From Stentor roeselii (Eukaryota; Ciliophora; Heterotrichea; Heterotrichida; Stentoridae), in assembly GCA_006503475.1 (NCBI GenBank), contig RSEH01000197.1, positions 1 through 64,000 of the forward strand: a stretch of DNA of 64,000 nucleotides, read 5' to 3'. The notes under the pieces were generated by a model, which was given only the letters and a program-made list of their open reading frames with translations, was not told the origin of the DNA and ran no database searches. The position numbers and the translations under genes are program-made. The first letter of the stretch is position 1. Each line of letters starts with the position of its first letter. Of this stretch, positions 46,679 to 50,249 are shown piece by piece.

Positions 46679-48106
46679 ATGCAAGACTGCGACTTTTCAA
46701 TTCAGACCGACCAAGGAGACTCCTTAACAACAATTCTACTAAAAAAAGAAAAAGAACTTCAAGACCTTTCAAAAATGCGCATCAGTCAATTACAAGACCA
46801 GCTGATCTTCAAAGAAAAAACGATTTACGACCTGGAATGTCAACTTCGCCGGCTTTCTGAAGACAACTGCTACAAATCCACACTAATATCTCAACGAAAT
46901 TCTGAAATCTCAGACCTTGAAAGCCAGATTCTTCGTCTTACTCAAGAAGCTTCATCACATCTTCCAGTGATTTCGAATTTGAAATCTGAAAATTTGATAC
47001 TTTCTGAAAAACTTGAAAGTTTAGAGATAATCAATGAGGATTTAAGAAATTCTCACTTAAGTTTAGCTGAAACTGATAAAAGACTACAGGAAGCTTTTTC
47101 TAATAACAACAAGTTAAATTATGACCTTCAGATGGTTATTCAAAAGTTAAAGGAAACTGAAAGTTTTTATCAGGAAGCTTCGAATGAAATTCAGCAAAGG
47201 GTGGAAGACTCGAGGTCTAAAGCTTTGTTGATTCAAAGTTTGAATAAGGATAAAGAAAAATTGGAAAATGAAGTTAAAGATTTGAGGAATAAGTTTAGTT
47301 TGACTAAGGAAAAATGTGAAAGGGAGTTGATGGAGGCTAAAGATAAGTTTTTGAATGAAATTCAAGAGGCTAAAGCACAAAAAGATGCCAGTTGTGAACA
47401 AGTTAATTTTGCTGCTATGGTTCAAAGTGATAAGTTTCAAAATCAGATTAAAGGGCTTTTGGATGATAATAAAAAACTTAACCAGCAGGTTGAACACTAC
47501 CAAAATTTAATACTTGATAAGGAAAAAAAGTACAATCAGGAAATTTATACGTTGAAAAAGAGTTTGAATGAAAAAGAAACGATTATTGAAGACCTTTATG
47601 CAAAAAATAGAGCTAAAGATATGGAAATCACCTCAATCAAAGACTTGGTCGATCACTGGAAAAACCTTGCATCTAATCGTGCTGAAGAGCTTTTCAAAAC
47701 AAAACAAATTCACCTAAGAACCGAAGAAAAAGCCGAGAACTACCTAAAAGAATTAGATTCAATAAAAACAAGTAATTTCGACGAGATGCAAAAACTTCAA
47801 AAAGAAATAGAAACCCTCCTAAAAGACAAAAGAATGAAATCCGAGGTCGAAGTCCAAGAAAACAGCAAAATAAGAAAATTAAGAGAAGAAGTTGACAATC
47901 TTCACCTTCTTCTCCAATCAAAAGAAATAGAGCCTTCAAGGAAACCCGACCAAATCGAAGCAAAAACAATGAAACCCTTTCACTACGAGGTAGAAAAAAG
48001 CCCTATAATGAGAACATCGAGCAAAGACTCAGTTCCAAGAAGTCGAAACAAGATCTACCAAGTCAAATCAAATCTTCATCATCAGTTCTCAAATTTTAAT
48101 ATTTAA
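46679..48106 (+). CDS. Coiled-coil protein
   Basis: The 475-residue protein is dominated by long coiled coils (about residues 18-425), acidic and Glu/Lys/Leu-rich. A short basic Ser-rich tail ends NKIYQVKSNLHHQFSNFNI. No other domain is seen. The ATG at 46679 is the first in the frame after a C/A-rich leader; a different frame open from 46489 overlaps but has no GT to allow joining by an intron. Its stop codon overlaps the stop of the convergent ankyrin/LRR gene by four bases. Confidence 0.78.
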   Translation: MQDCDFSIQTDQGDSLTTILLKKEKELQDLSKMRISQLQDQLIFKEKTIYDLECQLRRLSEDNCYKSTLISQRNSEISDLESQILRLTQEASSHLPVISNLKSENLILSEKLESLEIINEDLRNSHLSLAETDKRLQEAFSNNNKLNYDLQMVIQKLKETESFYQEASNEIQQRVEDSRSKALLIQSLNKDKEKLENEVKDLRNKFSLTKEKCERELMEAKDKFLNEIQEAKAQKDASCEQVNFAAMVQSDKFQNQIKGLLDDNKKLNQQVEHYQNLILDKEKKYNQEIYTLKKSLNEKETIIEDLYAKNRAKDMEITSIKDLVDHWKNLASNRAEELFKTKQIHLRTEEKAENYLKELDSIKTSNFDEMQKLQKEIETLLKDKRMKSEVEVQENSKIRKLREEVDNLHLLLQSKEIEPSRKPDQIEAKTMKPFHYEVEKSPIMRTSSKDSVPRSRNKIYQVKSNLHHQFSNFNI

Positions 48107-50249
48107 CAAAGTGATTTATTCAAAAAAAGTTTGGAAGAATCAAGCATTTGATTCGTTTTTTCAAGATCTCTGAATAGTTTTTTTGTGTTTTCAACTGTTT
48201 CACAGACAGAGCGGGCAAGTCCTTCAAGAGACCTTCTAAATAGTTTTTACTCGTTTTTAGCTTCTCGGCTTTGCTTTAGCTCTTCTTTGCCGACTACCAT
48301 TCTGATTTTTTTACCTCCTAAAGATGCAAGGGTCTTAGAGAAGTAGTTTTTTCCTTTGTCTTCTGCTAGAGCTGCTGGACTGCGGCCTTTGTAGTCGAGT
48401 GGGTTGGCATCGCCTCCTAGTTTTATGAGAAGTTCAGCCATGAGAAAGTCTCCATGTTTTGCAGCGTAGTGTAAAGGTGTTCTTTTTTTATAGTCAGTCC
48501 AGTTAATAGAAAGTCCCATTTCTACCAGTCTAGCCACTCTTCTCGATTTTCCATCTCTAACCGCATAGTGAATTGCATTTGCTCCTCTAATTACCCTTAC
48601 TTATTGTCAACTGAATCAAGCCTTCCCCCAGAGAGCATCAGCAGGTCAGCGATTTCAAAATTATCATAATTACAAGCCACTAAAAACGCATTAAGTCCTT
48701 TACTCTGCTTAATCCTTACATTTCGGACATCGATTCCAGGGTTTTTGGAGACAAGTAGTCTCGTCAAGTTCAAGTTTCCAGTTCGAGCAGCAAACATTAG
48801 AAGGCTTTCATCTAGTTTTGAGTCAACTGCATTGATTTTCAGGCCTTCTTTTATGAGTTTTTTTATGTAAGATAAGGCAAAAGTAGGTCTTTGCGCCATT
48901 ATCATTGTGATGTCAATTTCGCAGTCTTCAATACGATTTTTTAACTTTTTTGTGCTGAGTCTTACGAGTTTGGCTTTTAGATCATTTTCTTTCTCAAGGG
49001 TGTTTAAGTCGTTAGAAAACTTCAAAAAGACTTCTTTTTTGTTTTTTATCATCATTTTTTCTAGTTCCTTCTGAGTTTTATGCAAAATTTCAGTCCTATC
49101 AAGTAAAACCATGAGTTGTTTGACAAGTTTACAATCAAACATTTTATCACAAAGCAAATGAAACAACTTATTAAGCTGAGGACCTCTAGCAAGTGCAAAG
49201 TCTTTTTTCTTCAACTTGACAATCGGATAATTTTTACTCAGATTTTTAGTTTCTTCAAATGCCCTGATAAAAACCTCATTTTCATCAAGTGCATTATAAC
49301 TAAAATCAATTTTTTTAAAGTTTTTTCCATTCGAGTTTTCTCTTAAAATCGCCGAGTTTAGCACTTCCCATGCGCCTCGACTTGTGATTTTATTCAACGA
49401 AAAGTTGAGAGTATGAAGGTTTCCTGCGCTATTTGCAAGAAAACCAGAAAATTCCTTCAACCCTTCATCATTAAAAAAATTTCCTTCCAAGTCAACCATT
49501 TCAATCTGCGGGTTCATTTCAAGGATTTTTGACAAGACAGGAATAAAAGAATTCTCCAAGTTCATATATTCAAGATTCAAACTCACAGCAGGGCTCCCTG
49601 AAAATAAAATCTTCAACAAATGCAGAAGTCGACAGGAAAGAATCGAGCAAAGGTCAAGTTTCTCTAAAATTTCTGACTTTTCATTTAAAATAATGCTGAT
49701 ATGTCGGTCTTTTGCCTCCAGTTCTCTTGAAAGATTTTCAATTTTTTTCTTACTGTTCGAGTTAAACCTATCGAAATCCTTTAAACGTTTTTCAAGAATT
49801 GAGATTTCTTCTGTTAAAGTCTCGATTTTGCTGTTTAGTCTCGATTTCATCTCTGAGTACTTCCCTTTCCAATGCGAGTTCGGAAGACACTCTTCGCGCT
49901 GAGTGGATTTTACGTAACCTTCGAAATTTTCACGTTCTTTTGCGAGGATTTTAGAGGTTTGCTCGAATTTTAAAGAAATGTGATGCTTTTCTTTGAGAAG
50001 GTTCTGGATTTTTAAAGATTTTTCTTTTATGGTTTCTTCGAGACTGGATGATTTTTACTGTTTTACAAGGATTGAACATTTTTCGTGGTTTGAATAGGTT
50101 TTAGTGTGGTCTGGAAGCTCGTTGGTCTTTTTTCGGGTTGGAAGGTCGTCTTGCGATAGGTTCTGATTAAAAGGTACTAGAAACGGTTTTCCTATTGTGA
50201 AGCTTGTGAGACTTCTGGAATTTTTCTTCCTAAGAGTGGTAAAACTCAT
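48103..50249 (-). CDS. LRR-coiled-coil-ankyrin protein, four exons, with candidate 14-nt intron
   Basis: Exons are 50059-50249, 48601-50043, 48251-48586 and 48103-48235. The introns are GTAAAAATCATCCAG (50044-50058), GTAAGGGTAATTAG (48587-48600, only 14 nt) and GTAAAAACTATTTAG (48236-48250). The exon lengths add up to 701 codons including the stop, so 700 residues. A charged coiled coil (about 60-190) precedes an LRR-like block and further helices. Ankyrin repeats follow from about 430; the second is cut by the 14-nt intron, whose removal gives DNKGANAIHYAVRDGK, a perfect repeat. A short helical tail ends FLNKSLC. It is probably a scaffold. The 3' end overlaps the convergent coiled-coil gene by 4 bp. 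Confidence 0.85.
48587..48600 (-). other. Candidate 14-nt intron
   Basis: The coding strand reads GTAAGGGTAATTAG. Removing these 14 nt joins an ankyrin repeat in frame (DNK then GANAIHYAV). Removing 16 nt, to the next AG, gives a stop after nine codons, and no 15-nt GT-AG option exists. It keeps the 3' motif (Y-A-N-N-Y-A-G) seen in the nine 15-nt introns, with the 5' part shorter by one base. A missing base in the assembly would turn it into a normal 15-nt intron. Confidence 0.6.

Follow-up and report, generated by a model that had tools for sequence, protein, structure and literature searches.

The 14-nucleotide (nt) element GTAAGGGTAATTAG, found at 48600-48587 on the minus strand of a 64,000-nt stretch of Stentor roeselii DNA (C113:1-64000, hereafter the window), is very probably a real spliceosomal intron and belongs to a minor class of this length. 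It interrupts a gene coding for a leucine-rich repeat (LRR) and ankyrin protein in a genome of 44.4 Mb and 522 contigs, whose long reading frames are consistent with the standard code. The assignment is carried by the sequence of the element, by its place, which is shared with a 15-nt intron of a paralog, by the repeated restoration of conserved proteins when such elements are removed, and by the presence of a class of similar elements. That the RNA is spliced here we infer from these conserved proteins. Base 9 is the putative branch A, and the intron probably arose from a 15-nt intron by the loss of one base.

Frame and splice signals of the probable 14-nt intron

The sequence of the intron occurs once in the genome. 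Each GT in the region reaching from 60 bases upstream to 29 bases downstream of the candidate GT was paired with AG ends lying as far as about 75 bases beyond the candidate. Five of the resulting removals stay free of stops over the following 35 codons, every one of them beginning at the GT at 48600. Only the 14-nt removal leaves the ankyrin repeat SVDNK-GANAIHYAV whole; the four others (44, 59, 62 and 71 nt) each excise it. This survey bears out the original prediction that a single GT-AG removal in this region joins the repeat in frame. Reading the sequence also confirmed that the next AG, at 16 nt, leads to an early stop, and that the 3′ half resembles the 15-nt introns while the 5′ half is one base short.

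The element has the GT-AG ends, GTA start and YAG end of the heterotrich tiny introns, departing from them in its length of 14 rather than 15 or 16 nt. Its A at base 9 of 14 stands six bases from the 3′ end, a position that is also occupied by A in the 15-nt introns. The expectation of an intron shorter than its 15-nt neighbors stood, the 14 bases carrying the marks of an intron, but not as a singular case, since other 14-nt introns are present in the genome. The joined protein scores 107.8 bits against Pfam Ank_2, compared with 104.9 bits for the unspliced, frame-shifted form with five extra residues. Because this difference is small, it is the paralogs and not the Ank_2 score that carry the argument for splicing. 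A U5 RNA, the sole small nuclear RNA searched for, was found above cut-off at C258:35334-35443, indicating that the genome encodes a spliceosome.

Paralogs of the ankyrin gene

Searching the genome with the ankyrin protein revealed two close paralogs, L006 on contig C129 and L005 on contig C371, both alignable across the entire ankyrin part. L006 contains a 15-nt intron, GTAAAGACTAAAAAG, at the identical codon and in the identical phase as the 14-nt intron of the window, and L005 is intronless at that codon, with the continuous reading NLKGAKAIHLAV. At the junction, the three proteins align without gaps. Retention of the bases together with a shift of frame would add five residues that are present in neither paralog. 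When the genome was searched at the DNA level for alleles or near copies, the ankyrin gene matched solely itself.

A genome-wide class of 14-nt candidates

The pattern GTAAGNNTAANTAG has 31 matches genome-wide. Of the 30 besides the window intron, 28 (all except C284:3257 and C456:43) were read over 251 bases each. A match was classed as clear when the frames on both sides were open and the spliced coding score was at least 7 and exceeded those of all unspliced and opposite-strand frames. Nine of the 28 were clear: L046, L047, L048, L050, L075, L076, L077, L084 and L085, the last with an upstream frame open over 32 of 39 codons. L053 is a likely further 14-nt intron, adjoining a 15-nt intron and resembling Fis1 weakly, with a score below the curated cut-off. 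L103 has both flanks open and was not counted since its opposite strand scores higher, and L102 and L081 were likewise left uncounted, as they could not be classed as clear.

The same motif with other spacings gave no clear case among the matches listed (0/2 at 13 nt, 0/2 at 16 nt and 0/10 at 17 nt). At L069, for example, one of the 17-nt matches, the left flank is coding and the right flank hits a stop at once. The controls were taken from 100 listed matches out of the 351 of a variable-spacing pattern, and these 100 comprise 70 at 15 nt, 10 at 14 nt, 10 at 17 nt, 6 at 12 nt, and 2 each at 13 and 16 nt. The contrast between 10/29 at 14 nt and 0/14 at the other spacings corresponds to a post hoc Fisher p of 0.010. 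By extrapolation there are about 245 matches at 15 nt genome-wide, of which the 10 clear 14-nt cases would represent about 4% if the 15-nt matches are mostly introns. The counts of 2:45, from the scan of 332 kb described below, and 10:245 are concordant and, by hand arithmetic, would put the genome-wide number of 14-nt introns at a few hundred. We consider it likely that a genome-wide class of this kind exists, perhaps a few hundred strong, with a branch ring of 9 nt; its members would be shorter than any spliceosomal introns known so far.

The length of 14 nt is found again at a second, separately assembled place. L079 (C253:47119-47369) is a broken copy of the L047 transporter gene, with stops in all frames; it retains a 14-nt element, different by one letter, where L047 has its own.

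Conserved proteins across the 14-nt junctions

For several of these places, removal of the 14 bases restores a recognizable protein. An exact fit is that of the kinesin L076, for which the 78 joined residues match positions 167-241 of the kinesin profile (E 7e-20). The left half covers 167-204 and the right half 206-241; the two flank a single position, so that the codon made by splicing is 205, with nothing missing or extra. A second kinesin, L077, matches the profile with E 3e-18 and a solved kinesin with E 9e-12. The DEAH helicase L084 (C506:33410-33660) reads ...GEE-VGYSIRFED... through the junction and aligns without gaps to a splicing helicase (E 2e-19), and in the ankyrin protein L085 the Ank_2 match spans the junction (E 3e-7). 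L046 and L047 show weak transporter-family matches over the junction, under the curated cut-offs, that of L046 being accompanied by a match to a solved transporter (E 0.002). Neither L047 nor L048 had a related protein in PDB sequence searches. For L048, L050 and L075 the evidence consists of the coding scores. Rows for the kinesin and kinase families were also considered as a count of split domains and set aside: they hold the best 122 of 167 and the best 135 of 1346 candidates and, being limited to the best-scored ones, are uninformative on splits.

A further case, GTAGGTTTAAATAG at C31:124172 on the minus strand (L036), came from the looser scans described below. Once the two halves are joined, the translation has a match to RNA-binding protein 48 (PDB 7dvq_I; E 7e-15) that runs through the junction.

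Some of these genes are of note in themselves. The two kinesin places, C239:12453 and C239:14526, lie 2 kb apart and carry an identical 14-nt intron, GTAAGTTTAAGTAG, although its location within the motor domain differs between them. The genes may be tandem copies that have undergone intron turnover, or the intron itself may have been copied. The gene resembling a splicing helicase itself holds a 14-nt intron, and so does the RBM48 homolog. RBM48 is a factor of the minor (U12) spliceosome, and the introns noticed in this genome are tiny GT-AG introns.

Intron lengths in 332 kb

Intron lengths were surveyed in 332 kb, made up of the window, C31:1-200000 and 19 loci. The codon-pair gene finder was trained on the window and C31:1-200000, and the splice-site matrix was built from 42 hand-compiled 15-nt introns, with at least three called 15-nt introns left out. 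An A at base 10 is found in 39 of the 42. When all lengths from 11 to 20 nt were given equal weight, the gene finder called 45 introns of 15 nt and a single intron for each of the lengths 14, 16, 17, 18 and 19 nt; the same run made 25 frame-shift calls. A frame-switch scan with the matrix found one case at 14 nt, the window candidate, and another at 16 nt; the lengths 10, 11, 13, 17, 19 and 20 nt had no case across the 332 kb. The 48 cases that it found at 15 nt passed under a weaker rule, because multiples of three leave the frame unswitched.

Run without the matrix, the scan gave 16-28 candidates per length, a rate comparable to that of decoy ends (7-63), so that frame alone is weak proof and useless by itself. 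The second 14-nt case, at C31:124172, was missed by the strict matrix. The looser scans that found it gave 4 candidates at 14 nt versus 1-5 at other lengths, and with counts this similar the case depends on its homology. Other loose-scan 14-nt calls, at positions 168686, 198047, 179520 and 104404 of C31, were dropped because of poor splice-site scores or shapes. The sequence GTAAATGTGAAGTTCAG at C31:94332 on the plus strand (L033) is a possible 17-nt intron between two coding frames; if so, intron lengths may extend beyond 14-16 nt.

The spacing that probably shortens

The pattern GTAAGNNTAANTAG fixes an A at both base 9 and base 10 by design, and variants were therefore read in which one of the two is lacking. 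An A at 9 without an A at 10 (GTAAGNNTABNTAG) has 20 matches; one of the eight that were read is clear, namely L105, which carries GTAAGATTATTTAG and resembles ankyrin weakly, under the cut-off (E 0.001). The converse form, with A at 10 and T at 9 (GTAAGNNNTANTAG), has 42 matches, and none of the 12 that were read is clear. In all, forms with A at 9 are clear in 11/37 cases versus 0/12 for those with A at 10 only (post hoc Fisher p 0.029). Small as the numbers are, the sequences favor a tail of constant length, five bases, downstream of the branch A, which is also the arrangement of this genome's 15-nt introns. The A six bases from the 3′ end being common to the class, the base that is missing would come from the stretch separating the 5′ splice site from the branch A.

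From these patterns we propose that the 14-nt introns would be recognized in the same way as their 15-nt relatives, by GTA at the 5′ splice site and by a branch A followed by five bases ending in YAG. The spliceosome would hold the distance from the branch A to the 3′ splice site, and the flexible spacing would be that from the 5′ splice site to the branch A, which would be accepted at base 9, 10 or 11. In the first step, a lariat ring of 9 nt rather than 10 would form, leaving the 5-nt tail unchanged.

Weighing the evidence and the alternatives

Several observations weigh against a class of 14-nt introns. Among the 28 matches read, 19 were not clear introns, one of them being the likely case L053. 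Pfam searches found nothing related for the RBM48 homolog, which the PDB sequence search did match, nor for L048, L050, L075 and L084. In the window gene itself, the spliced form gains just 3 bits of ankyrin score over the reading that is five residues longer. The control spacings that were read are 13, 16 and 17 nt. Both Fisher tests are post hoc, since the rule for a clear intron was formed once the first 12 stretches had been viewed. Finally, an added need or preference for A at base 10 is possible, because A at 9 without A at 10 was clear in only one of eight cases.

Among the alternatives to a 14-nt intron, the one that survives best, though improbable, is an ordinary 15-nt intron from which one base was lost in the assembly. 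The original prediction regarded this as the likeliest explanation should the intron not be real, and the paralog L006 does hold a 15-nt intron at this very place. Assembly losses also appear to occur: of six frame-shift calls inspected by eye, two look like one-base losses, three resemble neighboring genes run together and one resembles an in-frame stop. The two probable losses, at about C31:6427 (minus strand) and at C31:146648 (plus strand), fall in runs of 7 and 12 A, and the longest run inside the window intron is GGG. Two 14-nt introns set against two probable breaks in the roughly 212 kb of predicted genes give p 7e-5, a value computed with 213,000 exon and 750 intron bases, of which the intron total alone includes the 19 loci, which puts it on the cautious side. 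Separate runs gave 25 frame-shift calls in the 332 kb, 7 in 54 kb of locus genes and, at the loosest setting, 18 in 163 kb of C31 genes. The exon rate could be higher if more of these calls are true; yet with all 18 loose calls taken as true, and with a detector that recovered 223 of 282 single-base deletions in a simulation, hand arithmetic predicts about 0.1 damaged intron in 50. Judged by the six calls inspected, frame breaks per exon base are far rarer than one-base losses per intron base would be.

The genome-wide counts point the same way. Clear 14-nt introns reach about 4% of the 15-nt matches of the same motif, other introns of the same shape lie in conserved genes, and the L047 intron is also 14 nt in its diverged second copy. 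Random loss should moreover yield introns with a shortened 3′ half as well, a form that was clear in 0/12 cases. Since the 14-nt introns form a class, a lost assembly base is not the best account of them.

Less probable again is that the gene is a decaying copy, in which a mutated 14-nt intron remains unspliced and the protein stops after DNK. The 14-nt form is rare, as this would predict, and the element of L079 does sit in a broken copy. The window gene, however, is otherwise open across 700 codons with standard introns, its paralogs align along the entire ankyrin part, and other 14-nt introns are found in kinesins, a DEAH helicase (251 bases read at each kinesin and helicase place) and an RBM48 homolog. 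A ribosomal −1 frameshift at AAT AAG TAA in place of an intron is very improbable: following AAG it would yield the open reading DNKVRVIRGANAIHYAV, but with five residues, absent from both paralogs, added within the repeat and a slightly lower ankyrin score, it would turn the GTAAG..TAATTAG motif and the co-located paralog intron into coincidences, and the kinesin L076 fits its profile with neither gap nor surplus upon removal of 14 nt.

Structure of the ankyrin gene and its surroundings

The LRR/ankyrin gene runs from 50249 to 48103 on the minus strand and comprises 700 codons once the introns at 50058-50044, 48600-48587 and 48250-48236 are removed. Exon 1 (50059-50249) begins with the ATG at 50249, as assigned from the open frame and the joined translation. 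It is followed by a 15-nt intron, GTAAAAATCATCCAG (50044-50058), placed by frame and by the splice-site matrix. Exon 2 (48601-50043) extends to the first ankyrin repeats and ends with ...DSVDN plus the AA of the following codon, which places the 14-nt intron (48587-48600) in phase 2. Exon 3 (48251-48586) continues the ankyrin repeats from GANAIHYAV... in the joined reading. Near the gene end, sequence and consensus point to another 15-nt intron, GTAAAAACTATTTAG (48236-48250), which went uncalled in the gene-finder runs; its retention would end the protein directly after KNE. With this intron removed, the reading continues through a probable exon 4 (48103-48235) to the stop TAA at 48105-48103.

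The gene converges on a plus-strand gene for a coiled-coil-like protein (46679-48106), the two sharing four bases. The palindrome TTAA at 48103-48106 holds the TAA stop of the plus-strand gene and also, provided that the last 15-nt intron is removed, that of the ankyrin gene.

Comparison with known tiny-intron systems

A 14-nt class, together with a paralogous pair of 14- and 15-nt introns at one place, would make the minimal size of a spliceosome substrate directly testable. Such introns would sit beside some thousands of 15-nt introns (hand extrapolation) and would indicate where the flexibility lies between the two spacings. The genes that contain them, including kinesins and the helicase, would be broken by gene finders built on lengths of 15 or 16 nt. 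How the spliceosome escapes clashes with the small loop of so short an intron is a question raised in PMC9505925.

No 14-nt ciliate intron was found in the literature searched, in which few subscription journals were covered and papers were accessible in part; a mention of 14 nt in one ciliate paper refers, in the portion available, to a telomere distance. The comparisons that follow likewise draw on the accessible parts of each paper. Mikrocytids also have many introns whose sizes vary very little and lie at the lower limit, but these are rhizarian parasites and their introns, of 16/17 nt, are at least two bases longer (PMC10245619). Loxodes magnus, from the sister group of the heterotrichs, has tiny introns too, with a mode of 17 bp and negligible numbers below 16 bp, and heterotrich introns are given in the same paper as about 95% of 15 bp and the rest of 16 bp (PMC11441545). 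In Blepharisma stoltei the introns are mostly 15 and 16 bp, and no 14-nt class is described in the sections available; UGA there encodes tryptophan, unlike the standard code found here (PMC9942806). A 2025 paper groups its own 23-nt intron with the 15-nt introns of Stentor and the 18-nt introns of Bigelowiella among the shortest known (PMC12316389).

The closest system is Stentor coeruleus, which shares the GT-AG ends, the GTA start, the branch A with a 5-nt tail and the standard code (PMC9505925). Its 8806 annotated introns comprise 8173 of 15 nt and 633 of 16 nt, leaving none at 14 nt in the annotation as reported there, and the branch A lies at base 10 in the 15-nt and at base 11 in the 16-nt introns (PMC9505925). 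The S. roeselii introns described here would extend this series to 14 nt with a putative branch A at base 9, one base under the 15 nt that is the shortest intron length in the literature found, as far as those papers were accessible.
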